Assembly (NCBI GenBank): GCA_914767715.1
Contig: OU612067.1
Location: forward strand, 17,117,001-17,181,000
Reading direction: 5' to 3'
DNA length: 64,000 nucleotides
DNA from: Membranipora membranacea
Lineage: Eukaryota; Bryozoa; Gymnolaemata; Cheilostomatida; Membraniporidae
Part shown: positions 8,344 through 44,900 of the stretch, in pieces
Position numbering within the stretch: position 1 is the first letter of the stretch
Layout: each line of letters opens with the position of its first letter
Program-made: the position numbers and the translations under genes
Notes under the pieces: generated by a model
The model's database searches: none
Seen by the model: the letters and a program-made list of their open reading frames with translations, nothing else
Told to the model about the DNA's origin: nothing

Positions 8344-11300
8344 GTAGCCACGGCATTACAACTGAGGAGTTTGCCAGTCGCCGTAAGCTTCTACTAATCA
8401 TTTCTAGTAGTTTTCTCACTCACAATCCTCAAACTGATAGAGTGAGCTCTGGAATTTCAAGAGATATCTAAATGCAGTTATTGAAAGAGTTAAAAAAGCA
8501 ATCATTGTCGCGTAGTCTTGTACCAGTAAACCAAACTAGCTGGTTTCGAGCATATATAAAAAAATCCACTCTATCCAATCTGAATCGGCATTGGCATAAT
8601 GTTGAAAGGTTTTCCACAGCTTTCTACCAAACGCTGCCTTTCTTAGTCGATTCACCTAATCCTGCAGATGTATCTATGGTAGTTCAGTAGCTGCATGTAG
8701 ATAGCATGTCTCAATGAACGTTGATGGAAAGTAGTCATCCACCTTCCTTTCTAGTAGCATTTTTAGTTAGCAGTTATGTCCCCTCAATGTAGTGGGTGCC
8801 AACTCCCAAAATATCCTCAGACCAAAAGGCTTTAGATAATATCATAATGCCTAGCTCTCATTAAAGTTATTCTTTGCTTTCTTTTGCATGACTCACATTA
8901 CCTATTGATGGTCTGATGTTGGATCTAACCGCTGCTCACTTTATATTTGGTAAGTTATCCTACCTTTATTTTGTCTGTCATTAGAACAATGCACTGCAGG
9001 TTGACGGTTGTGCATGATTACGCAAAGTTGATTCAGACTTGTATTCTTTATGGCCTCTTACTCCTTGCTAAGCATGCATTGTTTATTGGATGGCTAATAC
9101 GTTACATCGAACACTTTTAACAACACTACATAAAGCAATGCTTGGTGCGGTAGTTTTATGACGTTAACGTCGTAGAATCAATATTAACATTGCATTCAGC
9201 TTTATTTTGTAATCCTCTCCTCAAATCTGTTGTATCAATCTTGTTTTCTTGCCTAAATCAGGGATTTCAGGACAAACTCTCTGCCTTGATAACGGCAGCC
9301 CTGATTTTGTTTTAGAAGTTGTCCTCTCAGTGTATGATAATAGACAACTCTTGTATATAACAGTGTCTCTGTGTCATTTGTCTAGGTATATACTGCTATT
9401 TTCCTTAATTGGGTTATTATCATAGAATAAGTTTCACAGATGATCATCAATGAAGTCATCCAATGCGTTCTTCTTGACAGACGCAATCATTCATGTTTTC
9501 ATGTTGGATTTAATATGATTTTACCTTCATCCTCCTCCAATTCACCGCCACACCTGGCGATGTGTTCAGATTGAGGCTCTCGGAAAGGTGCTGATATTCT
9601 CAAGATTCATGTTGGTTATGGTTTCGTCGGCAGGAGTCTGATATGTTACAAGCACGTTGACCTGCACGTCGTGTTTTTGTGTTATGCCCAGGTATGACCA
9701 TCAACGGTTGGCAAGTTAACCAGAATATGATAATTGACATTGCCAATCAAAGTAGAGTTGTTATTTGACATGCATTGTTTTTCACAGTTTCACACCAGGT
9801 TCAGTTTATGTTTCCAAAATGAGTTGTTGGCATCATCAGCACTTGGTCACCTGCATTTATATGGTAACTTTGACACTTCATATGTCAACTCAATGTTTTC
9901 TTTGATATTGCTAAGTTTTCACTCTGTTTCTGGTTGTATGGTTGGGGTATTTGAAAATATTGTCACGGAAGGTCGTTCAGTTTGACTTTGGTCGGTCTAT
10001 TGTGTAGGCGATGCTTCCTCTGTTATTTTTTTAGTTGTTTCTCATATCGCTTGATTCAATGTACTATTGAAATGATTATAATACATGGTAGATTGATATA
10101 TTACAATAATGAAAAGCCTTTATCATAATAAGCATTATCTATATATATAAACTTTATCTAAGGTCGACCTTTAGACAAGAATCGGTACAATATTGAGACA
10201 CTTTAATAAATGGGCTGGGAAAAATCAATTTCTTGCCTCAACTCAATACCAAGTCTTATTTCGTAATTTGTAGTGTGCCCATATAGATACTAATAACATT
10301 CGCTTGCTGGCTTAATTTATTATTTCAACAAAGATTGTTGGGTTGGAGTGATGGGCTGGCTTGTCATCAATGCAGCAAGTTTACAACTCTTGAGCTAAAA
10401 GGGGAGGTACTCAACTTCCTAAGAGATATCGTTATCATTATTATTGGAGGTTTGATTAACATTTCGGAACTTTGAGCGATTGACATGCCCGTGTCAATGT
10501 CGTAACACATGCCATGAAGTGTGTAAGGCAGGCACTCTTCTGGTTCAATAGTAGCTGCGGAATGGGGCCTCCTACAATGTCTAGCTTCTGGAAATTCGTC
10601 TTACACTATTTGGTACTATTGCTGCTTCTAACGTCATCTGTTAACTGTCTGATTCACACAGCTGCGGAAAAAGGAGGTGAGCTTGAAATGTTGTTTTTTT
10701 CTCTTATTTTGAGCTGTCCTACATCAAATTGCATAATTCTTTATTAGGCTTTGATTTGCTGTGGCGCAATGATAATCTGTTTCATTGTCATAAAAAAGAT
10801 ACACCTGCCTGCTTAATTAATATCAAAAGGAACGAATTTTCGTTCTCAAATTGTTAATCTTGTTAGTAAAACTGGGCTCAATCGGAATTTATGTTATGTT
10901 TCCATCATGAGATTTTATCGGCCAAATATTTGTCAACCTTAAGTTATACACCTTAGGCATCTGTCGGTTCAGTCACACTTTGCGTCATCGGATGATACGC
11001 TGACACTTTCTGTTCTACATATTTCTGACAGTTGCTCAACTGGTCTAGGTAATGCGATTTTTGGACATTTTTGAAACTGTCAGATAAAAATAGAATATGC
11101 CAGTGCACCTTTAAAGGTTCATAATTATCATCACAATACACTCTTAAATTTCTCTGGAGGGGATAAAACAACAATGTTACCGCTAAGCAAAGATTTATTT
11201 TGCCTGAGGCGCTTCTTTTAAATCCTGGGAATTTAAGTAAAGCGCTTTTTAGAAATATTCGTGGTAGCAATTCAATTAGCTGCCGTCTAATCCTTGTGCG

Positions 11301-14300: not shown

Positions 14301-17300
14301 TTAAATAAGCTCCCTGGGAATAACATTCTTGTCGGACACACATCAGTCATAAGATGAACAAGCACTCACTTTATGAAGTACATTTGTGTTGGGTTTGCTT
14401 CTGAGCGGTCTGGTCAGGACTTAATCGGGCAGATATATGGTCGGAACGAAGAGAAACAATTCGTCTCGGAGAATTCATCAGCTGGTTGGTTGGTGAGGTT
14501 GATCACTTACAGGATGAATATAGTTTTCCATAAACTAATGACAGTGTCCATTCTAGGTTTGTAATGCGTAAACCTTCAGTAAAGAGTTTCACAAGATTTA
14601 GATCGATGATACTGTCTGGTTGATTTGCATCACAGATTTTGATTGTTTCACTTATAGCAACAATTTCTTTATATATCTTGTGACATTGTCGCACTGTCAG
14701 ACTGTCAAACTGTCACACTGTCATAAGCTTATAACAATCACTCAAACCTGTGACATGGTCACAACTGTCACAGCAAAGCGAAATCAGTAGTTAATATTTT
14801 GAATTGGTTACTCAAGATAGGAGATTAGTAGATCAACGAGTTACTGTTTCTCCTTGAGTAGGGTTTGGTAGAGGTTTGAGGGCAGTATGAATGTTCTGAG
14901 TACATATTTTATCGGCAATGTGTGATTCAAGTTATTAGTCACTTTAGTTGAACTGTGAATTGGAGATCAGCCTTTTCAGATAGGTCACACCTCACTCAAA
15001 AGTTTTTTGTCAGTTATCTCCGGCATAAGTTTCCAACCGTTCTGTAGATCAATGTTGACAAGGATTGATTTGATTATTTGTATTAAACATTATTCTGTTA
15101 TTTTACATCTTTATTTTATTGATCCTGAATATAATATGACTTGCATTTGCAGTAGCAAACTTTGAGATAGTGCCTGAGGCAACCATGCCACCTAATGATC
15201 TTTAGACTTCACATTTTACCAGCTTGTGGTGGAATCTTTTTGTCTATTATGTTGTCTAGATCTAGTTAGGGTTATTTTTAAAACCCTAATGGTGTGATTC
15301 AAGAGTTCCTACCATGCCCTTTACTCTGGGGAATCGCCTAAATTCCATGTGTTAGCCTGATGTATATTCTACCATGGTGAACATATTGGCTGATAAAGTT
15401 AGGTATCCAATATGGATGCACAATGTATGGCGATAAAAGTGACCATCTAGAATATATGAGCGTTACAAAATAAGATACGGAAAGGCATTTTTTTCTTTCT
15501 TTGTATTGCTGGTGAAACCGTTGTCATTCGAATAATATCCAATATATATACAAATTGTATACACCCATGATGTTCAGAAGCTTTAAAAAAAATTATGTCA
15601 AATCTTTTCAAATATCTGTCTATCTTTTTTTACAGGTACTTTAGCTTTGTCTGCTGAGAAGAGGCTGATAAAAGATTTGATCGACACATACAGACAGGCG
15701 GGGGTTATCGGACGCCCCGTAAGGAACGCCACAGATTCTATACTAGTCAGTTTTGGTCTGGCTCTTATTCAAATTCTCAATGTGGACGAGAAGAACCAAG
15801 TGCTCACCATCAGCACATGGTCCAGATATGTGAGTGCAAGTCTGGAGCATGTTTTGTTCCTCCTTTTTCTGATGTCATTGATATTAAAGTGTTTGTGAAA
15901 TTGACCATTCTGAGATGGTGAAACTCCGGGAGAAAAGCCGAAGTATGCCTAAGCGCCAATGTTGTCGAAGCAAGCTGATTGGTAAACTTTGCCCAATCAC
16001 GTTGTTAGACTCAGAACCACCACTCATTCATGATCACCAGAGGCAGCATGAATAGGACTTACAATTAACCAATTGTATCACAGGCTATCAATGACACCAA
16101 AGTCAAAGGGCAGACAACTAGGAAATCATCAACCAAGATTTTTATTCTGATAAAAATGGTAATTGAGTGTTTCTGTCTGAGTAACTCATAAAAATCTAAC
16201 AAGAGGGTGTAGGGTCAATCCGAAACTCAGGGCCTTCATCCCATCCTAGTTAGTAATTTCATATCTATACTTGCAGAAGTATGATATTCTGATCAATTCG
16301 AAGTTGTATTGAAATTTATATCTACTATTCTGAGTTGTTCATTAGAATAATTTGATTTTATATCGTTGGTGGCCTTACGTCTGTCTACGATGTAGCAAAG
16401 TGGCTATTTTAGACGTATGTATCAATAAAATTCTCGTGTCTACAAAGTTGACCTGATAACTGAATCAAAATATTGGACAATCTAATTTTCATGTGTTATT
16501 ATCCAACTTGATTTAGAGTAAAATGGACCAAGGTGCATTGGCAGAGGCATTGGCATTGGCATTGGGCTGTTTACCGGAGCCCTTATGATTGAAAACTTCT
16601 ATCAAATATCCCATAAAATCATCAATGTGTACACGATCCTCAAATGGGCTTTCAAGGAAGTATGACAGACTATTATAATTGTAGATGATGCGAATCCCAA
16701 TCGTCACTATCCCTCAGATTTCACTCAATTTTGATTATGATTTAAGGCTGGTCCACATTGACCCAGACAGCCATCCAAGATAGCCATCCCAGTCAATGTG
16801 AACATGAAAATTACACAATCCCAGCAATAAAAATGAGTCTGGAACAGGATCTGGAAAGTTTGTGAGGAGGGGCAAATTTTATCGTCATCTAACATAGAAT
16901 ATGGCAATGAAAGTAATTAGTGAAAGGCAGCAGAGATTTTGCAGCAGCGTTTAATCCTTGTGACTACCATACGACTCCTCAATCAATACAAGCATTCTTT
17001 TCACCCACAAAGGAGCACAGCTGTCCGCTATTCATATCATTGATTGGTATCAGGTATATTCTATGATTTTGATAGTCTTCCTAACAAGTTGACAATAAAA
17101 ATAGCAATTCGAGACTCTGATTTGTGACTAGTTATGTAATTCATCCCTCTACAACTGAAACATGAATGACTACGACTGATTCGCCCCGTCAATCATCTCA
17201 GCCGATTGAGTTGAGTGATTGACCATTTTCTGTGAACTGCACCCTGGGGAAAAGCCAAATATGTGCCTTATTACAAATTTCTTATGTGGAATTGCTAGTT

Positions 17301-20300
17301 TTGAAGGATGCTGAGGCAGAGCACCTATTTTTTATAAAGCGCAACTTCTCTCAATATGTGCTATGATTTATTCCTAAATTAAGTAACCGATGAAGTTGTC
17401 CTCACGCATGCCGCATACCCCTGCTAGTTTTTTGTAGCAAGAAGCTCTGTGGTTTTTGTATCTCTAAATATGAGCATGTGTGGAAAACAACATCCCTCGA
17501 TTTCCTGTCTTAGATCATGAATTGAGAAAACTATAGACTCATCACCGACACATATTTTGTTGGCTACAATGGAAGTAACACTAGTTTTGGCATTTCATAA
17601 CGTTTCATGTATCAGAGATGACTCTTTATATACATACCCTAAAGGAGTAAATTATTAGCAGGAGGAAAGTTCACCTTATACACACTTGCTTGAAAAAGTG
17701 TACAGTTATGGCTAGCTTACATTTATTCGCCATCTTTACATTACATTTACATAGGATCTCAACCAGCTGGCCAACAATTTGTGCTAACTAACATTATAGC
17801 GTCTCAAAACTAGCTAAGATAAACCCTAGCTAATATTTTCTCTGCTAGGGTTGCCAATGCCAACAGTATTTTGGAGATGTTCTATATCATAAAATGGTAG
17901 AAAAAGGAAGTGGATAGTTTGGGTGTACCATATAAAAAGTTAGGCCACGCCCACATGCTCAGCAGGAAAGAGCAGACATTAGGAAGGATAGAAATAAATA
18001 TCTTTTTTTTAAGTATGTCTCTTATTGTTTTAGTGGTGGAGGGACTATCTACTAGCCTGGAATGAGACGGAGTACAATGGAGTTACAACAATATCAGTAC
18101 CCGCTAAGGAAATATGGCTACCAGATCTTGTTCTCTATAACTAGTGAGTTTTCTTTTTATTTCCAATTGAAATGCCTCCAACCTACAAAGTATTACCACA
18201 CCTGCCTGTCATAATGAGGTTTTCAGTAGCTCAAACTTGATCCAATTTATCCACCCCCCCCCCCCACAATCCCTTTCTTTCACTATTTTTCAACTCCGAG
18301 TGCAGGCAAATTGGATTATACTTGTTCTAGGTTTTCTGCGGTGAAATGAATTTTGGGCCGATCGAGCAGATTACTATGTTGGCACATCCAAGATGTGGCA
18401 AAGCTAGTATTTTGTATATTTTTGCCACAATCAAAAAACTCTCATATTCAATAAGAAAACTTCATTTTAGTCTCCCAAACTTTTCTGGTCCATTGCATCA
18501 TTGCAGCGACAAAAATAGTTGCATCAGGTGAATAGAATATTGTTAAGTTCACGGGGTATACCATCATGTTTTTCGTTGAGTTTAGCCTGTGATCAGGCAA
18601 TAAACTACAGTCTGAGCATGGAAAGGTGTGTGGTGTGCTATGCTTTTCCGCTGGTCATTTTCGGGATTTGATGTTCACATGTGAAAACTTTGCATGAAGT
18701 GATGACACTTAATTTGGTGACTGTTTTGCCTGTGTATTGGCCCTCATCACCGTGTCATGCATGCTACACAAACAATAAATTTTGTTTTGTGAAAGCCTGT
18801 TTGTCAACAGTCCAAAAAGTTTGCTGACAGTGGCAACAAGAAAGCGCTTTTTTTATCTTTACTGGGTTCTGCTAAAACAGCTTTGGCCTACAAAACCTTT
18901 TGCTCATTGATAACAACAATCGTGTTTGATTCTTTCGGAATGAAATCTATTGATGGATATGACAAGTTTTATTAAGTGAAACATTATTCAGATGATTAAA
19001 TTGACCATCTAGGTGCAATTTTCTTCCAGCGTTTTACATCTGGACATGCAAAATTAATCACTCTTACATTTCACTGATCATAGCCAGAGCGTACCGCTTG
19101 TTACTCGACAGTTATTTGAGCTCGAAAATTATTGATTTGAGAATACAATCTTGCTAATAACTTGTATGTGACAAATAGAGTGACATTTGTATCGTTCAGG
19201 AGATTGATCTTCCTTGCAGCAACATGCACACATGTGTCAATCAAATAAATTGAACAAGATTGCTACTCAACAGAAATTTAATCAAATCTGTAGCCTTTGA
19301 AAAATCAACAATAGAAAACCTTCAGTTTTAAGTGAAGGAAATCAGTGATTTGATTGGTGCTCAATAAGTTAATGGGATTCATTTTTGTTAATGAGTTAAT
19401 GATAGGTGAAAAACATTGTTGTTTGTTCGAAGAGTTTTACTCACATGTTTTTTGACAAGACAACTCCCAGAAAGAAAGCTGATCAAACATTCAATTTCTC
19501 ACCGCGCCAGATGACAATCTCAGAATGTATTGTGTTATTCCTCGGGAGTTTTCAATTTCATAAGGTTTAAAGAACTCAATTACAAAACTGTTTGACATAT
19601 AATTACTAATGGAAATGATCTATTGGTACAGTTTTACCAAAAATAAAATAATTACAGCTTGACACTATTTTTTTATGTTGAGCACCACAATGCATCCCCA
19701 AGACCCAAAATTATCAGGGAATTCACACCTCTAAAATCACCCCAACCCTGATAATTCCAGAAAAGTGCATTATGGAACCCTCTTATCATGCCTGGTGTTT
19801 TACACCCAATTAAAAAGCGGAAAGATTTGCCTTCCAATATTTAAAGCTCAGGCAATAGTGAGCTATGATAACCGCCAAACTTAAGATCAGATAAGATTTA
19901 TTTTGACCCTTATATAAAGTACTAAAATAATGTTTTTTCTTTTCTTACCAGTGCTGATGATCGGTTGGAGGAGAAGCGAGAGGCGATGGCGGTGATTCAG
20001 AGTGACGGATATGTACTGTGGATCCCACCAGCTATTTTTAAATCATCGTGTTCAATCGATATTACAAACTTCCCTTTTGACTCACAGATTTGCCACCTCA
20101 AGTTTGGCATTTGGACATCTGATGGCTTCAAAATAGACCTAGCATTTTATCAGGTATATTTATCTTTTTAACTCGATATGAGACTTCCCAAGATGCCATT
20201 TATAAGAAGTCACCAAGCTATAAACGTTAGCATCGCATACTCTTACTTCTGCTTTGTTTTTTCTTGCAACGTATACACTGTTTTGTGGATCACCTGCGCA

Positions 20301-23300
20301 TCAGTGCCTAACCTAAGTAAAATGTGTTTTCCACTCTCCAAATTGTGAAATTTATAAAAAAAACTCTTTCGCAATTCAACCCTCCGATCTATGTAGTGTG
20401 GCGTACCATCATCACCTTACAATCATAATAGTTTTTGTAGTTTGTATTTCGTGTTTGTAACTTTGTTTATATTTCTACTTGTATATTTATGTTGGTAGGA
20501 TCTTCCAGCGATAGACTTAGCGAATTATGTGGCAAGTAATGAGTGGGATGTGATTGGTCACCCAGCTCGTAGGAATATACTGAGATATCCATGCTGTATA
20601 GAACCATATCCTGATCTAACCTTCACATTGGCTGTCAGGCGACAGGTAAGCTATTAGATTAACATAATTCGGTGTAAGCTTCAAGGTTTAGGTCTATGAA
20701 ATGAATACCCTGACCAGTGTCTTGGCCAACTGATGGGTTGGTTTGATTGGTGAAACAAAGCAAGTGGGTTAAAATCGTCCTACCGTTCTATCTCTGTCGG
20801 AAAGAGAAATAAATGTGCCATACTCGGCGCAAAGTTGCTCTCAGTTTGAAGAATAGCAACATGTGGTGTGTTCAATTGACATGACACGTTTCAGTAATAA
20901 TTACAGCCAGGGCTTTCCTTTGAGATAAAATGTGGTATTTTCCAAAGGATACCATTTATCAAACATCTTTGGTTTCTCTTGTTCAGCAAAGCCTGGATGT
21001 GTAAGAAAATCCTTTTTTAAGCCTTAAATTCTGTGAGCGTCATTGCTAATCACTAGCTTTCCAGGTATCGTGTAAGCATATTGCTCAAGATAAGTTTTTG
21101 GGCCGTGACGTTGATTGTGTGGTTTGGTATCACACACATATACACTGGACTGGACCCTCAGCAAGGGGATGCTGTGGTTAAAATGGCTTGGGCACTTACA
21201 GGCTTAGCTATAATGCGTCAGCATCACCAAGCCTGGGGATCTTACAGTAATAGATGGTTCATGCAACTTAACTTCTCCTGCCCCTATAAGCCACCAATTA
21301 TAACAGATGTTCATGTTATGTAAGCTCCTTCATGGGGTTGCTGCAGAGACTATAGATATTATCTATAGTCTCTGGTTGTTGCATGTAAAGTGGGCGGACA
21401 ACTCTTGTATTACAGGATACCAACACACCAAAGCATTTTAGAGCCATACAGTCAGTAATGCTGTACTTAGCCAAAAATTTAACCAAGAGAAAATTCGAAG
21501 AGCTCTCTCGAGTAAAAATAATCGATTGAATTGTTCCTCTTGCTCAAGTATGATGAGTATGGAATGAAAAGTTTAATTTTAAATGAGTATTATCCAAAAT
21601 AGTTCATGTATAAATGTACTGTAATAATTGAATTATAAATGACAAAGCCCTTCCTCTTTTTGTTGGGAAATCGCCAGTCACAGTTACGTATCTAAATAGC
21701 CTAAGCCTTTGATTTATTGTAGGTGGCGTTTTACAGCTATATACTGATATTACCCTGCGTTCTCTTGTCTCTATTAACCATGGTGCTGTTCTGGCTGCCT
21801 CCGGAGTCACCTGCTAAAATGCAGCTCGGTAAGTTTGATTAAAGCCGCGCTATTAGTTTTTTAATACTTTCAGAAGGCCACTGCCAACAAGGAGTTAGCT
21901 CCTTGCTGTTGGATGGGAAAGGGAACCAATGCCAGTACATAATGAGATATAGTGAAAGTGATACTGAATTAATTTCCCATTAATTCTATAGGTATTTTCA
22001 GGAAAGTACCATCTGACCTCGCATTGGCTCTCCCCCACCAACAGCCAGAATCAATTTAAAACTTTTCAATATTTTGTTGGTTTGGAATTATTTATTACTC
22101 TTGAATATACCTGTGAATAATTTTATTTCTTGATGAGGAGAGTATTATTCAGACTCAAAATTGACTGATCACCATTGCCTAATTCTCCTATTTTATTCAT
22201 GTGGTATCCCACTGGCACTAGAAACTGACCATACAAAAGAGGAATATAAAATAATGATACTTTCCCTGGACTTTTATAACAATGACACACGGATAATGAT
22301 TAGCTCTGGTTTTGAACGATGATCTACCATCCAACAAACATGTATATACATTCATTCGCATTTGTCTCTTGCAGGAATGAACATATTTGTGGCGTTTTTC
22401 TTGCTATTATTACTCTTAACTGAAAATACGCCACCCGCAGCATCTTCCATACCACTCATAGGTAACTGAGGCTATGAAGAGTCAAGGGGAGGCAACCCTA
22501 CAAAAATAAGATTTAGTTGCTCCCACTCTTATCAATTCTGCTTAAGAATGACACGCCATTCCCGCAATTTGATTTTCTTACACTCCTTGTGTCAAGATTA
22601 TGGATCAGTACCTTCTTTATTCTTTCGTATCTTGTCTTACAAAGAATTTGAGTTTGCATGCTAGATATTAATTATTACTGTGCAGGTGCATTTCTTGCCT
22701 CAAATCACATCCCCATAAATTTACAAGCACTGTGCTTGCACATGGAGTAAGACAAGATTATGATGGCACTATGGTAGGATTGCCTTCTCTTAATTCTCAT
22801 ACTAGATGTAGGTTTTGGAATACGAGCTATCATTTCGCTTCCAAGCATTTTTCCTGTATGGTTTGACTTACCTCCCCCTTTATTTTAGTTGGTAGATGTT
22901 TTGTTTTCTTATGATTTTGTAGGCCTTAACATCTATTCTTCATACTTTGTACTCTTGCTAGTTCTAACAGAGTCAACTCCACAAGTTGCAGGCCTCATTC
23001 CATTAATAGGTATGGAGAAAAACTTGAACTTCCCTAAAATAACCATGGTGATTAAAGTAGGATATGATGTAGTAAGCTGATCGCCTTATCCTCTTGACCT
23101 GGACATGGATTTTAATCAAAAGCAACTGTTTAAACCCATGGGGGAAAAGAAAAATAACAATCGCTTTAATCAGACATCTAAACTTGTTTGAAGGACCTGA
23201 GCTTGGCAAACACGAAGAGTGAAGACCCGCAAGAAAAGCATCCCCTCTAAATAAACCTATTTTACACCCTAAATAAAGTCCCATACTTAAGCTCTTTGGC

Positions 23301-24657
23301 AATGTCTGAAAGGAAATCGGGAGTTGCCTTATGTTGAAGAGATGGAGTCAATTATTAACCTCGATTGTGCACCTTCCACTGTTTTTTTGTAGTAACCTGT
23401 AGATTCATTGTCATAGTGTTGTGCCAGTGAAAATTATTCTAGAAATAGATTTAACACTCAACTACTGCCACCATTTTAGCATGTTTCAGAGTCAGTGAGG
23501 TCTGAATCGTTGCAACGTTTAATTTGAGTAAAATAAAATTGCCAGCTAAATAAGATGTGCTTGAGAAGTGTGGAAAAACATTGTTAATTCCTGATTATAT
23601 TTTTCATATTTCTCCCTCACTATCAGCTGTATACTCCTGTGTATATTGTAAAGTTCTGATTCTCTTTGTTTCAGGTGCATACTATTGTTTGAATATGATA
23701 ATGATTACATTATCGACCTTTCTAGCGGTGGTCGTTATTCACCTGTATTTCAGAGGTGATAGGACTAACAGGGTTCCAACATGGCTACGGAAGGTAAGTT
23801 ATGTATTCAAGATATTTACACAGTGGAAATAGATGAAATACTGAATTATTTTTTGATGTATATGTTTATATTAATAATGATGGTGATGATAATTATTTGA
23901 GTTCTTGTATCAGGTGGACTGGGTTGCACAATGCCTGTGAAATATATAACATTCAGAAACAACGGAATACATTTGGATGTTAGAATATATATAAATAAGT
24001 TGCTGGATATCATGGAAAATTTTGTGTGAAGAATAAATTTCAAGTCTGAATTAAAACGATATACGATTCATATTCTGTGATATTGATACTTGACGTTTTT
24101 ATGATCTTGACCAGCCTTTATTTTTGTAATTTCAGACTGTTTTGGTGAGCCTAGCCCGATTAATGTTCATGCTCAACTATGTGCCAAAAGAAAAGGGTGA
24201 AAAAATCTATGAAGCCATCAAGTCAGAAGATCCTAAACTGCAGAAAGAATTCAAGCGCATGAGAATCAAAGAACTAAAATACAATAAATTCCAAATCAAA
24301 GAAGTCACTGGTAACAGTGTCACCAACCATATATGCAGCTGCAAAAGCAACGGCAGCGCACCATACTCCAGCAGAAATGGCGGTGGTAGTTTAGGAAACC
24401 ACAATCTATCAGCGCCCATAACAGAAGTCTCTCCCGATATGTCTCCGCTACATCTACATCAAAACCTGGAGACAGATATTAGAGAGATAAAACGATACCT
24501 CAAAACCATCATATACAAACAGAAGCATAAAGAAATGGTGGACAAAATCAAAGCCGAGTGGCGAGCAGTCGCGCTTGTTTTAGATAGAATGTTTTTCGTA
24601 TTGTACGTTCTTTCAATTATAGTTTCACTCGCGACTATGTTCCCAAGGTCGGCATAG
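8217..24657 (+). CDS. Nicotinic-type Cys-loop acetylcholine receptor alpha subunit, probably anion-selective (multi-exon gene)
   Basis: Pentameric ligand-gated ion channel subunit of the plasma membrane. Coding exons: alternative first exon (8283-8343, 10577-10676 or 11968-12022), then 15636-15829, 18034-18143, 19952-20153, 20499-20645, 21723-21828, M2 exon (22375-22461 or 22923-23009), 23675-23793 and 24136-24657. All junction phases agree, and the product is 513 residues with the 11968 start (numbering used here). Visible features are the Cys-loop C153-C167, the vicinal C219-C220 that defines an alpha subunit, and a complete aromatic box (W80, Y118, W174, Y217, Y224), so acetylcholine binding is expected. 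There are N-glycosylation sequons NAT and NET, four membrane segments and a long M3-M4 loop. P266-A267 at the start of M2 replaces the Gly-Glu of cation channels, as in chloride-conducting Cys-loop receptors. The family is certain; ion selectivity and splicing are inferred. Confidence 0.93.
10514..10676 (+). CDS. Alternative first coding exon 1b, signal peptide (receptor gene)
   Basis: Frame-compatible Met codons lie at 10514 and 10577. The second gives the cleaner signal peptide: MSSFWK followed by the hydrophobic [18 protein letters not shown]. The donor GGAG|GTGAGC after 10676 leaves one codon base, so joining to 15636 keeps the frame and adds Gly. The exon is not homologous to 1a or 1c beyond being a signal peptide, and no acceptor is obvious in front of it, so it may carry its own promoter. 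Confidence 0.6.
11968..12022 (+). CDS. Alternative first coding exon 1c, signal peptide (receptor gene)
   Basis: A 55-nt coding piece: MAELRLHF then [10 protein letters not shown], a compact signal peptide, with donor ACAG|GTATAT after 12022. It leaves one codon base and joins in frame to 15636, giving a 513-residue product. It is the start nearest the common exons. A short upstream reading frame (ATG at 11937, stop at 11973-11975) overlaps this start by 8 nt in another frame and could damp translation if transcription begins upstream of it. Confidence 0.6.
12176..12237. mobile_element. 62-bp foldback element, family C copy 2, with 7-bp target duplication
   Basis: The ends are inverted repeats CTAGCCTTGTCACGC / GCGTGTCAAGGCTAG around a T-run and A-run centre. 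The exact 7-mer CCCGTAC lies immediately left (12169-12175) and right (12238-12244), which is good evidence of insertion. There is no coding capacity, so it must have been mobilised in trans. Confidence 0.75.
15636..20645 (+). CDS. Receptor extracellular ligand-binding domain, exons 2-5
   Basis: Exon 2 (15636-15829) carries the N-terminal helix and the loop D Trp in STWSRY. Exon 3 (18034-18143) starts WWRDY and ends in loop A (LVLYN). Exon 4 (19952-20153) holds the Cys-loop [15 protein letters not shown] and the loop B Trp in FGIWTSDG. Exon 5 (20499-20645) holds loop [12 protein letters not shown]. Splice phases after these exons are 0, 2, 0 and 0. The C-x13-C spacing of the Cys-loop is exact. 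Intron 2 contains a transposon remnant at 17637-17851. Confidence 0.93.
17637..17851. mobile_element. Non-autonomous DNA transposon (MITE) with CCCTAAAGGAG ends, copy 1
   Basis: The left end CCCTAAAGGAGTAAATTATT and the right end CTAGCTAATATTTT..CTAGGG are inverted repeats of each other. Internal words such as CTAACATTA and AAAACTAGCTAA are shared with copies at about 35694-35935 and 61983-62412. It lies inside intron 2 of the receptor gene and has no reading frame. The target duplication is unclear. Confidence 0.6.
21344..21374. mobile_element. 31-bp palindromic micro-element, family A copy 1
   Basis: Perfect 15-bp arms (CAGAGACTATAGATA and its complement) flank one central base. The 7-mers GTTGCTG (21337-21343) and GTTGTTG (21375-21381) lie directly outside and differ at one base, as a target duplication would after decay. 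Copies of the same palindrome sit at 32562 and 41667 in unrelated contexts. Confidence 0.75.
21723..21828 (+). CDS. Receptor exon 6: M1 and the M1-M2 linker with the Pro-Ala anion motif
   Basis: The exon encodes M1 ([18 protein letters not shown]..) and ends [10 protein letters not shown] plus one base of Gly. Aligned without gaps on M2 numbering, Pro falls at -2', Ala at -1' and Lys at 0'. Cation-selective nicotinic subunits usually have Gly-Glu-Lys there; glycine and GABA receptors have Pro-Ala-Arg. The motif lies in this constitutive exon, so both M2 variants inherit it. Confidence 0.9.
21898..22055. repeat. Foldback repeat shared with 47816-47880
   Basis: Left-arm words GGGAACCAATGCCAGTAC mirror the right-arm GTACCATCTGACCTCGCATT. 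The right arm is closely matched at 47816-47880 (ACCCATCTGACCTGGCATT). It lies in the intron between the M1 and M2 exons and has no coding content. Confidence 0.45.
22375..22461 (+). CDS. Receptor exon 7a: M2 pore segment, variant a (Val at 9')
   Basis: An 87-nt exon bounded by TTGCAG and GTAACT, with one codon base shared at each end. It encodes the M2 channel helix: 4' Gly, then [20 protein letters not shown], ending IPLI. On gap-free alignment to alpha7, 9' is Val, 13' Leu and 20' Glu. Exon 7b has the same length and phase, so only one of the two can be used in a normal subunit. Confidence 0.88.
22923..23009 (+). CDS. Receptor exon 7b: M2 pore segment, variant b (Ser at 9')
   Basis: Second 87-nt M2 exon, 461 bp downstream of 7a, with acceptor TTTTGTAG, donor GTATGG and identical phases. 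It encodes 4' Gly then [20 protein letters not shown], ending IPLI. It shares N6', I7', T19', E20' and the PLI end with 7a, but has Tyr 8', Ser 9', Ser 10' and Val 13'. The frame is intact and conserved, which argues against a decayed duplicate. Using both exons would insert a second M2 and probably destroy topology. Confidence 0.85.
23675..23793 (+). CDS. Receptor exon 8: M3
   Basis: The exon starts with the last two bases of a Gly codon followed by [20 protein letters not shown], the M3 helix, then IHLYFRG and the start of the cytoplasmic loop ending VPTWLRK. The donor AAG|GTAAGT is strong and ends in phase 0. Both M2 exons join it in frame. Confidence 0.92.
24136..24657 (+). CDS. Receptor exon 9: cytoplasmic loop, M4 and stop
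   Basis: Last coding exon, 173 residues. A basic stretch after M3 ([16 protein letters not shown]) is followed by a low-complexity Ser/Asn/Gly-rich loop, an amphipathic region before M4 ([18 protein letters not shown]) and M4 ([20 protein letters not shown]), with a short tail ending in the TAG at 24655-24657. A possible poly(A) signal AATAAA lies at 25141-25146. Confidence 0.92.
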   Translation, partial: TVLVSLARLMFMLNYVPKEKGEKIYEAIKSEDPKLQKEFKRMRIKELKYNKFQIKEVTGNSVTNHICSCKSNGSAPYSSRNGGGSLGNHNLSAPITEVSPDMSPLHLHQNLETDIREIKRYLKTIIYKQKHKEMVDKIKAEWRAVALVLDRMFFVLYVLSIIVSLATMFPRSA

Positions 24658-27600: not shown

Positions 27601-29507
27601 GTCTTGTTCTCGGATGTGAGCGTCGCTGGTGATAGGGGTGATTCTTCTCTTTGTGTAAATATGATAATAGGTGAGGGTACTCTGATAATTCATCCAACAA
27701 GATTTAGGCTTTAGGCCTTGTTGAGTCATGGATTGAACTGACATTGTGAAAATCTCATAGGTGAATCAGAAGGCTTGCAGTATTGTTTGGTTTGTTTTGA
27801 TTGTCAATGTGAAGTGGCTCAGGATGCTCAATCAGATTGCGCTTGAGGACTTCATTTCGTACAGTCTTGTCTATCATTTTCTGCTGACCGATTGTAAAGA
27901 ACAGTCATGAGTCATATGGGTTCAATCTTCAATGCGTTACAACGCAGTGCCTCCTTTTGCCTCCTTTTGCAGGCTTATCACATGTTGGTTACAATGTTGG
28001 TGATACTTTATACACAGGGTATATCCATATGGTTGGTATCAGTGGGCATCAGCAAAGAGAGATCTGCTTCTAAGTTTACATATATGTGTCTGAACTCTGA
28101 ACTAGTGTAGGCCTAGGAACAGTCACAGTTCTTATTAGTGATCAATAATTGGGTGATTGATTGTTGGTTAGATGACTGACCCCACCTTTTGTCTTTCAGA
28201 GGGTCAACAGGTCAGACAGACAAACATCCTGATTGGCCATCCTTAGCCTGTTGAGTCGGAGCCAGATAGGAGATTCGTTGTGTACTGTTGGTGATGATTC
28301 GTCTGAGTATTTGACACCGCATTGTTGTTGTGGGATTTCGTCTGAACCCTCATTGTCATCTTAAGTCTGATAAATGATGTTCCAGTTTTAGCCTTTTTGA
28401 TGCCGCCCTGTGAATGTTCTACCTGTAACTGTAATTATACCCCACATGTGGGTGACTTATGTCTATAATTTTCTCCCTGTAGCTGATAGCTGGCCATCAT
28501 TCGTTCTGACACAAAATTGGTAAATTAATCATCGGATATGTAGTTTTAATCATACCCTTACATGGCTTACTTTAATCTTCGGACACGAATGAGTTCACCC
28601 CAGTCTCAATTATACATACAGCTAACAACAATCAGTGAAATGCGGTACACTAAGTACCAATGATTCACTCAGTATTCAATTTGGTGATTGCAATAATTAT
28701 TAAGTTTATCCAGACTAATCACAATGTTAAATTTCAGGTGACAGTTCGGACTGTAAAAGGGAAAGTTTATCACCGGGTCGGCACAATATTGCCAGCTGTG
28801 TCCACTTACTTACATTTCTACTGAGCAGTTGATTGAATCAGGATAGAACTATGTAATACTTATTAAATTAGTACTTAACAGTGTCAGACTGGGTAGTCCA
28901 GATGACCCTTAGATAGTCCTCTGTTATCTAGCTCTGCGGAAGATAAACTCACACAAAGCAAATTTATAAGTCATATCTTACAATTTGTAACCTCTTTTGG
29001 ACCTACTGAGGGGACTTAATTACTTATCGGACTTACTGAGGGGAAGGTTGTCATACCAGAAGGAGCAAAAAATATGCCACACAATACACATCCGTGTCAG
29101 TCTCAATCTCCTGCCTCTCTTAGTCCGCTTTCTTCCATGATGATCACTGGCACATAACATTAGGGAAAGGACTTTTGGCACCTTTTTCTAGTGTGTCCCA
29201 AATGGTCGTATGGTGCAATTGAAGTCTACAGTAAAACTCTGTGCTCCCATAGTGACAATTGCTTCATCTTATCTGGAACCTTCAATTTTAAAGATGCTTT
29301 ATCTTGGAATTGCATAGTTGATGGCCTTACAGAAGGGATTATTTATATGAACCAAGTCAGTCAATTTATGTACATGAAAAGCGGAAGTTTTTTGTTTCTT
29401 GTTTCACCTACATATTCATGACCTTATTCTCTGACTAACGGACAAAGAGAATGATTTGACTTGAGCCTTGGAAGTTTTTGATAATAGAACAATGGTTATT
29501 GTTTCTT
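24658..29507. other. Intergenic region between receptor and casein kinase genes
   Basis: The stretch probably contains the receptor 3' UTR (possible AATAAA at 25141) and the 5' flank and leader exons of the kinase gene. I see a small GTAA repeat near 25355 and several short open frames without recognisable similarity. No RNA gene or transposon with intact ends was identified. Confidence 0.4.
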
Positions 29508-38900: not shown

Positions 38901-41900
38901 AACACTTAGCATCATCACTGATGGCTCATAATGTGTAGATCATGGGTGGGCAACCTTTTTATGAAAAAGGCCACATTTTATGGAGTTTCAACTCGAAAGG
39001 CCGCAAAATATCTGTCAAGCCTAAAGTTGGAACAGGAGTAACAATTCTGGCAATTCTTTTGGATATACTATAACAGATTTAGGCATATAAACTGCAAAAT
39101 GTTGCAAGAAACATAGCTCATCAGAGTTACTGGTTCATCTAATCTTCCAATGTTTTGTGATGTCATGCTTCTCGTGATTTGATTGTGTACATGACTATAT
39201 CCCTGTGTTTCCTGTGTATGGCATAGGGCAGGATGTGCGGAGGGGTGCTGTAGCGCCCCTCCCGTAAGGGGGAAATTTTCACAAATGCTTGTGAAATAAG
39301 CGGCAATTTTTCTGTTCTGAGTTAATTTGAAAATAAAGCACTGAAAAGTAGTTTGCAACAGTTTGCATATTTATGATATTTTTGTGAAGAATTGCTTTGG
39401 AAGCGAAGCTATTAATGCCTAATACAGAATGGCCACCATACATGAAAATTGTGATATCAGAGTGCTTTGTATACTTGTATATCTACATAACAAAACAGGA
39501 ATTAAAATTATTGCGTAAAAACTTTTACAGGCAAAAGGCCGCAAAACATTCCTCATTGGGCCGCACTGGCAAAAAGGCCGCAGGTTGCCCACAGCTGGTA
39601 TAGATCTTATGTGGAGCTTTGCTTATGGCACCGAGGCTTTCTTGCCAGCTGTTTGGAGATTTTAAAAGGTTAACCCACATAGCCACAATATATAATCCTG
39701 CCTTTCACTTAAAGCCTGGTGCCCAATTGCAGAAGGCAATCTCAAGAGTCTTCAGACACCCAAAATCTTGCAATTTTGCTGCGATTGGGCACCAATCAAA
39801 AGAAAACGGAGTATCTAGGGTCTCAGCTATAACTAGATACATGACGTATTATGGGCAGAATGTCATTCTATTTGAGTCTTGTTCAAATTTACTTTCAAAA
39901 TGCTGGCCAGTGGTTTTTGAAAAGAAAATATTGATGGAATTAATGAGCTCTCCAGATCCATTGTTAGAGGAGATTAAACTCCTAATCGCTTTACCACTCA
40001 GGGATTTCCTTGTATCAAACATACATACTGAGTGGTTTGTATCCAAATTTGAACTGAGTGGGCTGTCCAAGCAGGGAGCTATTAGAGACAAGTAGATGTA
40101 CATGGTTTTACTGTCCTGATTAAGCCAGCCAATCAGGGTCTCAAGGTCTGCTAGCTCCTTCCCCTGTGACACCCCCCTAGGGAGTACCACTCAGGATTAA
40201 TGACGTATGGTTGTTATGAGGAAATAACTTGAGTGCTCAGGTGATCTCAGTTGATCACTGGGTACAAATTTCAAAACTTTCCAAACAATCAATGGCCTGC
40301 AATTTGAGGTGTCAAATTACTTAACAATCGTTTAAAAAGTTTCCATTGTGCAACATCATTTTTTTTTAAATCCCATGATGCAACATTAACCTGGAAAAAG
40401 TCCCATGATGCAACATCACACTACATCACTTCGTTAAAATGCAACTAGCATGAGTTTCTTTAATTCTGAGTAGATTGTTACTTTGGTACCCTTGTATAGT
40501 GACAAAAAATTCATGACCATAGGTCATGTTTAGAGTTTGGGTTAATCCAATGATGATTCAGCCGGCTTCGGTCTTCCTAAGTATGCAATAGGCTGACTCC
40601 TGCTACACCTATGTGAGCAGAATAAGAGGCTACTTATTCCATTGAATTGATCACCATTACTCATTGTTGGACGTAAATGGAAACATGTAATTTGCTCAAC
40701 TTGTCCAACAAGTAACTGTTGTGGCAATGCACATTATTACATGGATGACTGTAGGAGCCAATTTTCTTGCACAGTAGCATTTATTACGGAGATGATTGCT
40801 GAAAATTTGAAATTAGCCTTATTTTGCGGATTGTGAGTGCTTGAAAGTTCATTGCTTGCCAGCATGTGGGTCTTGACCCAATCATGCTAGCTTTGTTTAC
40901 TTAGTCTTATATGATGAATCTCTGATAATTATGGACTGATCCCAATTTGTTATTTACCACACACTAGTCCTTAGTTCCTTGGGGAGTTTTTGTCCACGTG
41001 AAATATAAAGAACTGTTGTTGATCTAGCACAATGCTTATACTAATGGTCATTCCTCGTGACTTAAGATTTGTTTAAAGCTAATTCTAAACGTTTATCACC
41101 TTCGCATGGATGCCGATATCTTGTAAGGTTCAGAGATGATAAATATCGCTAATACAAATGAGATATATCCTTTTTTACCATTGCAGGTAGATTGTGAAAC
41201 TGATGTACATTTTTTTTGCAAAAAATTTACATGACTTAATTATCCTTTCAGACATGGAAATGACGTTGTTCTGTTGTTTTTTTTTTGTAGCTGGAAAGAG
41301 TTGAATTTGTGCACAGCAAAAGCCTCATATATCGAGACGTGAAACCCGAGAACTTTCTCATTGGAAGACATTCGACTAAACGGAATCATATAATACACAT
41401 AATAGACTTTGGCTTAGCCAAGGAATACATGGACCCTGAAACTAATAAACACATACCATATAAAGAGCACAAAAGTCTCACGGGAACGGCTAGATATATG
41501 AGCATCAACACACATCTCGGAAAAGGTTTGGTATTTTCCTCTAGCGCTGCCAGATTTAGTTCTTTTCCTTCGTCTCCCCTGTCCCCAATGATGTCAAACA
41601 TATCCTTGTCACACTGCTACTTTTTTTGTATTGGGGAAGTAGCCGCGTGACAAGGCTATGTCAAACCAGAGACTATAGAAAATATCAATAGTCTTTGGTC
41701 AAACTGTCTTATTAATATGTGATGGCGCATTGAAAAGCTCTGTGACGCAAATGGTGAAGCCAGAATATATATTTATCTGATTATCAGTGCAATCTTTCAC
41801 GGTTTTGTGTCGGAAATCTTTGACACAAAACGACAACATCAAGCTCCCATCAAAGATGCTAATGTATTTACGTATGCATATAAGGTGTTGATTGCTGCCG

Positions 41901-44900
41901 CCAATATGTAACGCTGACTTGAAGCCTTGTCACAGTTTCATAAAGGGGAGCTTAACTCCAAATTACCGCACTACCACATATTACTTTGTCAAGCTTAATA
42001 AATAATAACTTTCATTAAAAACTACCCAAAGACCAATGCATGTTATAGTCAGGCAGTTACTTATGGTAAAAAAATTCAATGCTTTACTTGGCATGCACTG
42101 TTGATGGTGGAAAAAGTACATTATAGGTAACTGCCTGACTAAAAGATGCATTGGTCGTTGGGTAGTCTTTAAGATTCATAAATTATTGATATATTATTAT
42201 AATGATTATATTAATTTTTTATCCTGGTTTTAGAACAAAGTCGGAGAGATGATCTGGAGGCTCTCGGTCACATGTTTATGTATTTTCTACGCGGTAGCTT
42301 ACCTTGGCAAGGTCTCAAAGCTGACACGCTAAAGGAGAGGTACCAAAAGATAGGAGACACAAAACGAGCCACTTCTGTAGAGGTTTTATGCGAGGGATTC
42401 CCAGGTATGTCATAGTTTTGTTAAAAGGTCACCAAGCAGGGGTCACCAAAGGAGCGAAATCACGTCATGCGGAAGAGATTTTTTATATACCGTCACAAAA
42501 TTTTCATTGTATTTAAACAGATAGAAGCCTCTTAGTAGGTTCTTGAAATAACTGTTTCTGGTAGTTAAAAGACTCTTCGGCATGGTGTCAATATTTCGTC
42601 TTCTTTGGTGACTTCTACAAAAAAATATTGAGCCGTTTTAATAACTAAGGTTAGGGGAAAACATGCCGGTAGCAATTGTTGGAATTCGCTGAGCGTGAAA
42701 ATAGTTTGCAGGCTCAGCAGGGCATTAACTTCACCCTGGGGTAAGGACGGTTATTTGCTTTTACAAATCAGGAATTTCCATGTGTTGTCAATACAAATTC
42801 TAAGAAATACCTACTTGAATTTCAAATGAATCAATTATTAAAATATTTCTAAAACTCAGCTGGGCTTAAGTGCGTAGTGCCTATATGTTGTGGAATTAAA
42901 TGATCTTTAAATGAAGGCAGCCTCATTCCTCATGTCTTAGCTGTTGAGGTGACTGCACCGCAGCACCGGAAATTTGTGAAAACATTATTCTCTCAAGTTT
43001 CTGTCCAGTAAGAAAATATTTACTCAGTATGTGTTGTTATTGACATTCAGCAAATTAATTATCTATTATCTCCTAAAGCTAACAGTCCATTGCAAGCATC
43101 AACATCAACAATGCCTCTCAATAGATAACCTATCAATAATGATATTAATAGTAATAATAATATGAACTTTGTAGCTATTCAGCTATCAAGCTGAGCAGCT
43201 GATTGGGCGCTTCCGCATCACTATTATTCCAACATGTCCGACACATAACATGTGTGGAAGAAAATGTTATTGTAGAAATGACAATGTATGCCATTGATAA
43301 GTTCACAGAAAATTTTTCTGTCTGACATTTATTGAAGGTCTATCTATATATGACTTCATTGCTCGTAATAGTGCACTGCCCCTAGCCATAGCTTAGTTAT
43401 GTTTAGTATAAGCAAGGAGTAACAGGGGAAAGGAGAAATAACTCCCAAATTCTTTATATATGTTATAATGGCACTGTTATTATACTATGGTAGCCTCGGC
43501 ACAATGGCCACCATTTTGGAATTTTTTTTTATATTTTTCTTGTCAGTATGTACACCCAATGCTTGATAATGGTGTAAATTATGATTTGACAACTGCATGA
43601 TAGGAATAGCTTACAAAATATTGTGAGTATAGTCAACCTAGAGCTCTCATACTCACACAATTAAGTAAAGAAGTAGTGTATCATCAGAATTTTTTGCTCA
43701 GAAAACTTTGAAAGTTCCTTTAAAAATATGCTCAGAAACACCTACTAACATGTTAAAATGTTGTTTCTAGTCAATATCAGCATGCTCTGTCTGTGCAAAT
43801 CTTATTTGAGCACCCACAGAGTCTTGTTCACTGAGATATCATGATGGAAAGTTCATGGAACATTGCAAATCATCACCATTTTTCTCTATCGATAGGCACC
43901 GTGTTAACCTGACTAAAGCTGACCTTGCAACCACTCACTATGTAGCCCTTTCAACAAACTGTCTAAGTTTAGACAGAGGACATGTCTATATCCCCTCAAT
44001 CAAATGATATTAGCTTGAGACACTAGCTATCTAAGGTCAAAACAGAATTTGGCCAACAGAGGGGGTAGCAGATAACCTAATCCTATTGGCTGATTCAATA
44101 TTCTACGTCATAGTCCATGATAATGTATAACAATTGTATTAAACCATCATTTACTCAAGTGGCCATGATAGCGCAATCAGCAATCAGTAAGAGCGCCGCC
44201 TGAAGATTCCAACTGCTTGGGTTCGATTCCCACTTTGGTCTCAATTTTAATTTCATCAAATTAATCGGAGGCGAGGCAATCATAGTCAACTAAAAATAAT
44301 AAGCTATCACTCCTCTTCGCTATTACTCCTTGGTATAAGTTCACCAAGCGCTGTGATGGTTCGAGGCCATTTGTTTTGAGCAGCAGTACTTGCTACATAT
44401 ATACTGGCACCACTATTGGTAGTAACAGTACTTGAAACACTCTCTTGAAGTAAATTCTATATATGGAGTGGTGTTTACATCTTGATGGTAGGGGAATTTT
44501 CTACTGGTTGTTATGATTAGCAAATTGGAAATGTAACAAATGGAAATGTAACTTTTTATAGCCGATAGTCTATCAAGAATTCTATTTCTAAACCATCCAG
44601 TGGAGACATTTATACAATAGGATGCATCCCATAATTTTATCTTTGGCCTCTGTTTCCCAGACTCTGACATTATACCATTGATCTGATTTCTTGGAGAATT
44701 CCCAAAAAGTGTGTTATGGGATACACTGAGACAATGCTCTCATTTTATAAAATACTCATTGAAATTGTTGTAATGTTTATGTATTTTCTTGTTACAGAGG
44801 AGTTTGCCACTTATGTACGGTATTCTCGGAGGCTGGACTTCTTTGAGAAACCGGACTATTCCTACTTGAGGAAACTTTTCTCTGATCTGATAGTGAAGGA

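Follow-up and report, generated by a model that had tools for sequence, protein, structure and literature searches.

A nicotinic-type receptor gene of the bryozoan Membranipora membranacea contains two neighboring exons of equal length for the second membrane helix (M2), and this raises the question of whether one gene makes two receptor subunits with the same ligand site and different pore gates. We analyzed a window of 64,000 nucleotides (contig OU612067.1, positions 17,117,001 to 17,181,000 of the forward strand); all coordinates below are positions in this window. The gene lies on the + strand and comprises ten exons if both M2 exons, 7a and 7b, are counted, or nine per transcript with one M2 exon. 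Joining the exons in frame yields a subunit of 533 residues with either of them. The features are:

10562..10676, +, exon 1: start codon and likely signal peptide (open reading frame, hydrophobic leader, phase-1 donor fitting exon 2)
15636..15829, +, exon 2: start of the ligand-binding domain
18034..18143, +, exon 3: ligand-binding domain
19952..20153, +, exon 4: ligand-binding domain including the Cys-loop, with 13 residues separating the cysteines
20499..20645, +, exon 5: YPCC vicinal cysteines (alpha-type) and end of the ligand-binding domain
21723..21828, +, exon 6: M1 and the SPAK (Pro-Ala) motif at -3' to 0'; phase-1 end
22375..22461, +, exon 7a: M2 helix and M2-M3 loop, 9' = Val
22462..22922, +, intron between 7a and 7b: 461 bp, U2-type
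22923..23009, +, exon 7b: alternative M2 helix and M2-M3 loop, 9' and 10' = Ser
23675..23793, +, exon 8: M3
24136..24657, +, exon 9: intracellular loop, M4 and stop codon

Exon 1 with the signal peptide is the least certain exon of this model. Pfam domains PF02931 and PF02932 scored above their cut-offs with either isoform, with E-values of ~6e-60 for the ligand-binding domain and of 1.8e-34 (7a) and 7e-34 (7b) for the membrane part. The Cys-loop in exon 4 marks the product as a Cys-loop receptor, and YPCC in exon 5 corresponds to the vicinal cysteines of alpha subunits. Ahead of M2 the sequence reads ESPAKMQL, where Pro-Ala replaces the glutamate, as in the Pro-Ala (ACC-like) group. The solved structures scoring best by sequence were nicotinic subunits, with alpha4, alpha3 and alpha7 among the first.

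The closest protein among the matches listed is 'alpha-10-like isoform X2' of Watersipora subatra (P0001, 81% identity over 97%), followed by proteins of the nemertean Lineus (56%) and of Owenia (55%). For wider comparisons we used 171 homologues, the union of the best 120 of 281 matches from a first search and the best 120 of 130 matches to a query made with 7b. A FastTree phylogeny was calculated from the 140 homologues of at least 430 residues together with the 7a isoform; 31 shorter proteins were dropped and the M2 columns were left out. In this quick tree, which carries a long-branch warning and has no cation-type outgroup, the window protein joins Watersipora with a support of 99. By sequence it groups with lophotrochozoan Pro-Ala subunits. 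The gene is best explained as encoding a nicotinic subunit of alpha type that belongs to the Pro-Ala (acetylcholine-gated chloride channel-like) group found in lophotrochozoans. Its channel is probably anionic and would select for chloride.

Some other features of the window were noted. Open frames on the + strand at 41291-41647 and ~44800-45000 resemble casein kinase 1 exons, as recognized by eye. A short antisense frame (28723-28785, - strand) resembles a Cys-loop stretch, CADPVINFPFYSPNCHLKFNI, with an E-value of 0.009 in a search restricted to the window, and is perhaps a relic or a chance match. Tandem repeats were found at 58927-59050 (8-bp unit, 16 copies) and at 59856-59992 (18-bp unit, 7.8 copies; part of this array was also called with a 35-bp unit).

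The anatomy of the two M2 exons agrees with the original prediction. Both are 87 nt long, run from phase 1 to phase 1, lie 461 bp apart, have AG/GT borders and encode an intact pore helix. The phase-1 end of exon 6 fits both, and exon 8 continues either of them in frame. A split glycine is formed at each junction: the upstream codon takes its first base from exon 6 and the other two from the M2 exon, and the downstream codon begins with the last base of the M2 exon and is completed by exon 8. With these glycines both translations comprise 30 residues directly after PAKMQL, so that the M2 numbering is free of gaps from K0' in both.

On this numbering N6', I7', T19' and E20' are common to both exons, as had been claimed. 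The exons are identical in 48 of 87 nucleotides and 18 of 30 residues. Differences had been named at 8', 9', 10' and 13'; all four are right, but the list was partial, since twelve positions differ (5', 8', 9', 10', 11', 13', 17', 21', 24', 25', 27' and 28'). At 9' Val in 7a becomes Ser in 7b, and the gate band from 8' to 11' reads F-V-A-F in 7a versus Y-S-S-Y in 7b. The residues of 7a match Watersipora P0001 at 30 of 30 positions. A scan of all six frames of the window with an M2 profile found no third copy. As expected for a mutually exclusive pair, 7a and 7b are tandem, homologous and equal in length and phase. The core of the original prediction, interchangeable in-frame M2 exons with Val or Ser at 9' in a Pro-Ala subunit with one shared ligand-binding part, is confirmed.

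Divergence between the exons is concentrated at silent sites. Identity is 18/29 at first, 21/29 at second and 9/29 at third codon positions, so that third positions have diverged most (positions 1+2 against 3, Fisher P = 0.0026). The dN between 7a and 7b is 0.37 by NG86 and 0.33 by maximum likelihood; dS was not computable by NG86, and its maximum-likelihood value of 22 means saturation. The M2 profile was built from 79 distinct segments, derived from 170 segments that a pattern matched in the 171 homologues (P0110, P0168 and P0170 were unmatched, P0007 and P0171 gave two each). Exon 7a scores 96.6 and 7b 48.6; the family segments range from 54 to 104, and 7b thus lies below the weakest of the 79 in the profile (54.0). 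The next best score in the six frames of the window, -28.7, came from a position one codon out of register with 7a; unrelated positions reached -31.9 at most. When neutral drift was simulated from 7a, a stop codon arose in 63% of the copies, and none of 20,000 retained an open frame and reached the profile score of 7b. Judged by these scores, the M2 likeness of 7b is not due to chance. Because no neutrally drifted copy attained its score, 7b is an old exon under selection at the protein level, held to the M2 pattern despite scoring under every family segment in the profile. Its residues at 5', 8', 25', 27' and 28' each occur in none or one of the 170 family segments, and Tyr at 8' and 11' is rare (1/170 and 3/170). 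The original prediction that both exons are used is supported in part by this codon-level selection; that 7b is expressed, we infer.

A protein search specific for 7b (residues 286-325) gave 63 candidates, none of them at an E-value of 1e-3, in a database clustered at 90% identity. In a wider search (residues 275-350), 130 of 205 candidates had an E-value of 10 or better; 7a-type proteins stood at the top of the list, and the matches with a polar 9' included rotifer proteins and one cestode protein. Clustering at 90% would put the 7a and 7b isoforms from the same species into a single cluster and hide the second isoform, so the lack of a 7b-like protein of another species among the matches listed means little.

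How one exon per transcript might be selected was examined at the level of the locus. As 87 is a multiple of three, transcripts with 7a alone, 7b alone, both or neither all stay in frame. The passive devices for exclusion looked for at the locus, namely a U12-type donor, a short intron and frame-based decay, were not found. These devices do not explain exclusivity, because the intron measures 461 nt, the donors are U2-type and 87 nt preserve the frame. The region 21829-23674 is moderately enriched in short stems, with 24 of 9-mers against a mean of 12.7 in dinucleotide shuffles (4 of 200 shuffles as high) and nine of 10-mers against 3.4 (6/200). There is hardly any excess of 11-mers, with 2 against 0.8 (37/200), or of 12-mers, with 1 against 0.2 (25/200). 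Competing RNA structures are described as a product of tandem exon duplication in excerpts from PMC6071210; no clear layout of docking and selector sites emerged among the stems of this interval. The sequence TGATTAAAG occurs at 21836, soon after the exon 6 donor, and at 23049, some 40 nt downstream of the donor of 7b. One site at 23164, in the intron preceding exon 8, has the complementary sequence. We do not propose this pairing as an exclusion device, since its geometry would loop out both exons or neither. We infer that 7a and 7b are used as alternative, most likely mutually exclusive exons.

Several other explanations were weighed against this one. An assembly artefact or a collapsed paralogue as the source of the second M2 copy is hardly credible: nothing speaks for it beyond the bare possibility, the copies differ at 39 of 87 sites, the window holds just two M2 segments in six frames, and the only direct repeat in 21829-23674 is one of 16 nt at 81%. 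Exon 7b could also be a relic of the duplication that is now unspliced or is spliced only as noise. Its low profile score would fit such a relic, as would its donor, GTATGG, which matches the consensus at 6 of 9 positions compared with 7/9 for 7a and 9/9 for exon 8; the donors of exons 1-3, however, also reach only 6/9. In a relic, moreover, the open frame, the splice sites at either end and the M2 pattern would have outlasted the saturation of silent sites, with changes mostly at third positions, whereas drift in the simulation produced stops in most copies and never the score of 7b. We regard a relic as quite improbable.

If both exons were used without exclusion, joint inclusion or skipping would produce non-channel or regulatory proteins with two M2 segments or none, and 7b would be a cassette. 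All four combinations are in frame and no obvious steric, U12 or frame-based block was found; proteins with two M2 segments in a row are predicted in Dimorphilus and Pinctada, and one without M2 in Elysia marginata. Two consecutive M2 helices would, however, disturb a topology of four helices, the outside cases resemble automatic predictions, and a non-channel role would not need the full M2 character of 7b, which makes non-exclusive use unlikely. The splicing could also be as we propose and the function differ, with the 7b isoform forming no homomeric channel and only modifying mixed pentamers, for example by dampening them or making them leaky. Assembly should be equal for both isoforms given their shared ligand-binding part, and the family rarity of Tyr at 8' and 11' also fits a modifying subunit, a possibility to be taken seriously that we nevertheless consider doubtful.

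Overall, we assign a probability of roughly 0.68 to the explanation that tandem M2 exons have been kept as alternative, most likely mutually exclusive exons with a standard and a hydroxylated gate. According to this proposal, an 87-nt, phase 1-1 M2 exon would have been duplicated in tandem long ago, and both copies would have been kept by selection at the protein level. Exon 7a would provide the standard pore of the family with Val at the 9' gate. Exon 7b would combine the same ligand site with a gate band richer in hydroxyl groups (Tyr 8', Ser 9', Ser 10', Tyr 11') and a different M2-M3 loop. By analogy, the likely effect of 7b would be easier opening, a higher apparent agonist affinity or slower desensitization. 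The analogy comes from the 9' mutant L247T of alpha7: excerpts of PMC4548482 report slowed desensitization, a strong shift of the agonist response to lower concentration and more spontaneous openings. An effect of 7b in the same direction can be predicted with moderate trust only, because Val is the norm in this family, the channel is probably of the anionic type and 9' is only one of several positions that change. If 7b is expressed, natural splicing would mimic the classic 9' mutants, with the gate changed and the ligand site left alone, and the two isoforms would be a natural pair for testing how 9'-10' controls opening and desensitization in an anion-type nicotinic channel.

The gate residues were then compared with those of the family. 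The 9'-10' pairs in the 171 listed homologues are VA (103), TS (35), LA (20), MA (4), VT (4), SS (2), NS (1), VS (1) and a gap (1). The residue at 9' is hydrophobic in 132 of them and polar (Thr, Ser or Asn) in 38, a rate that is biased because the query made with 7b favors polar M2 segments. All 38 polar residues at 9' are followed by S10', a pattern to which 7b conforms. Of the 132 proteins with a hydrophobic 9', 131 have Ala or Thr as the next residue. The polar group includes ten rotifer proteins and one from the tapeworm Anoplocephala; its motif before M2 is Pro-Ala in 27 and Pro-Ser in 11 proteins, compared with 158 Pro-Ala, 12 Pro-Ser and one Ala-Ala in the full set. The twelve Pro-Ser proteins (P0078, P0081, P0082, P0086, P0089, P0096, P0097, P0098, P0102, P0104, P0166 and P0170) include nine from Rotaria and Adineta and one from Seison. 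P0164 and P0165 of Anoplocephala perfoliata are related, with 75% identity over 612 positions, and have Asn and Val, respectively, at 9'.

Seventeen of the polar-9' proteins are on the tree and require two changes, one for a 16-member clade containing rotifers (support 98) and one for the Anoplocephala protein; the other 21 were too short to be included. Seison adjoins the rotifer clade and has V9'A10'. After these two, exon 7b is, as far as the tree and alignment indicate, a third case of a polar 9'. The change from a hydrophobic residue to Ser at 9' in a Pro-Ala subunit had been called new. This stands for a switch between exons and does not stand for a polar 9' itself, given its occurrence among the homologues. 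Among the proteins examined, only the window gene appears to have an alternative M2 pair switching 9' from hydrophobic to polar, in a comparison where the 90% clustering would hide others.

The duplication of M2, by comparison, does not appear to be unique to this gene. Two tandem M2 segments with a period of 29 residues, the length of an 87-nt exon, occur in the predicted Pro-Ala proteins DgyrCDS7085 of the annelid Dimorphilus gyrociliatus (P0007) and FSP39_006302 of the pearl oyster Pinctada imbricata (P0171). At 9' their copies have Val/Val and Met/Met, respectively, in contrast to Val/Ser in the window; both are known only as predicted proteins. In the predicted Pro-Ala protein P0110 of Elysia marginata, M2 is exactly absent between PAKMQL and GAYYC, whereas the 98% identical P0026 has it. 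All three resemble products of automatic gene prediction, in which tandem exons may be joined or dropped. It follows from the first two that these genes have two M2 copies in their DNA, and the clean absence of M2 from the Elysia protein agrees with a mollusc M2 exon of equal borders. M2 duplication in Pro-Ala genes is, on these predictions, recurrent.

The age of the bryozoan duplication can be estimated from single residues. T19' is present in both window exons and elsewhere in the family only in P0001 and in Gigantopelta P0080 (2/170 segments), which suggests a duplication in the bryozoan line. V13' (125/170) and S21' (98/170) of 7b are the family majority, whereas 7a and Watersipora have L13' and N21'; that 7b kept the majority residues suggests a duplication before the split from Watersipora. 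The tandem duplication thus probably took place in the bryozoan line, after T19' had arisen and before the Watersipora split, a timing drawn from the thin evidence of three residues, of which any could have reverted. It predicts a 7b exon in Watersipora. As a tentative extension, which we hold with less than even confidence, the 87-nt M2 exon of lophotrochozoan Pro-Ala channels may be a recurrent splicing cassette in bryozoans, annelids and molluscs, with the gate switch from V-A to S-S in the bryozoan, and may supply phasic and tonic or leaky chloride channels with the same ligand site from one inhibitory receptor gene.

In insect alpha6, a nicotinic subunit that like the window gene has tandem alternative exons altering TM2, 9' stays Leu. 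Its exons 8a-c are alternative, change TM2 and are described as mutually exclusive in excerpts of PMC2064938 and PMC6393475, which bear out the precedent invoked by the original prediction. Insect alpha6 is placed near vertebrate alpha7 (PMC6393475, in part), in contrast to the Pro-Ala type found here, and exon 8c of Tribolium alpha6 loses the conserved TM2 glutamate (PMC2064938, in part), as opposed to the 9' change from Val to Ser in the window. The GEK motif before M2 that characterizes cation-type subunits such as the alpha6 group, given as a motif of nAChR subunits in the same excerpt of PMC2064938, is replaced by SPAK in the window gene. If 7b is expressed, it would add a case of M2 exon duplication among receptor genes as distant as those of insect alpha6 and the Pro-Ala subunits.

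Closer in type are the Pro-Ala nicotinic channels of Lymnaea and Schistosoma, which PMC4055736 identifies as acetylcholine-gated chloride channels and which share with the window gene Pro-Ala before M2 and a nicotinic-type ligand domain. The main text of that paper does not contain the string 'splic'. The Schistosoma and Lymnaea homologues in our set have Val at 9'. Intron loss and gene arrays are among the topics of PMC6896357, a survey of nAChRs in lophotrochozoans, and 'bryozoa' is absent from its main text. Among the matches listed from the open-licence literature, judged by titles and the beginnings of abstracts, no paper concerned alternative M2 exons in a Pro-Ala subunit, and bryozoans are a phylum hardly covered in the literature searched. 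A counterpart of 7b is seen in rotifers (Brachionus, Rotaria and Adineta), which like 7b have a polar 9' and Ser at 10', with Thr-Ser in ten proteins compared with Ser-Ser in 7b. Unlike the window gene, these relatives have one M2 per predicted protein, form a clade of their own and carry Pro-Ser in nine of ten cases; a polar 9'-10' pair of the kind found in 7b is the only form in most of the rotifers seen here.
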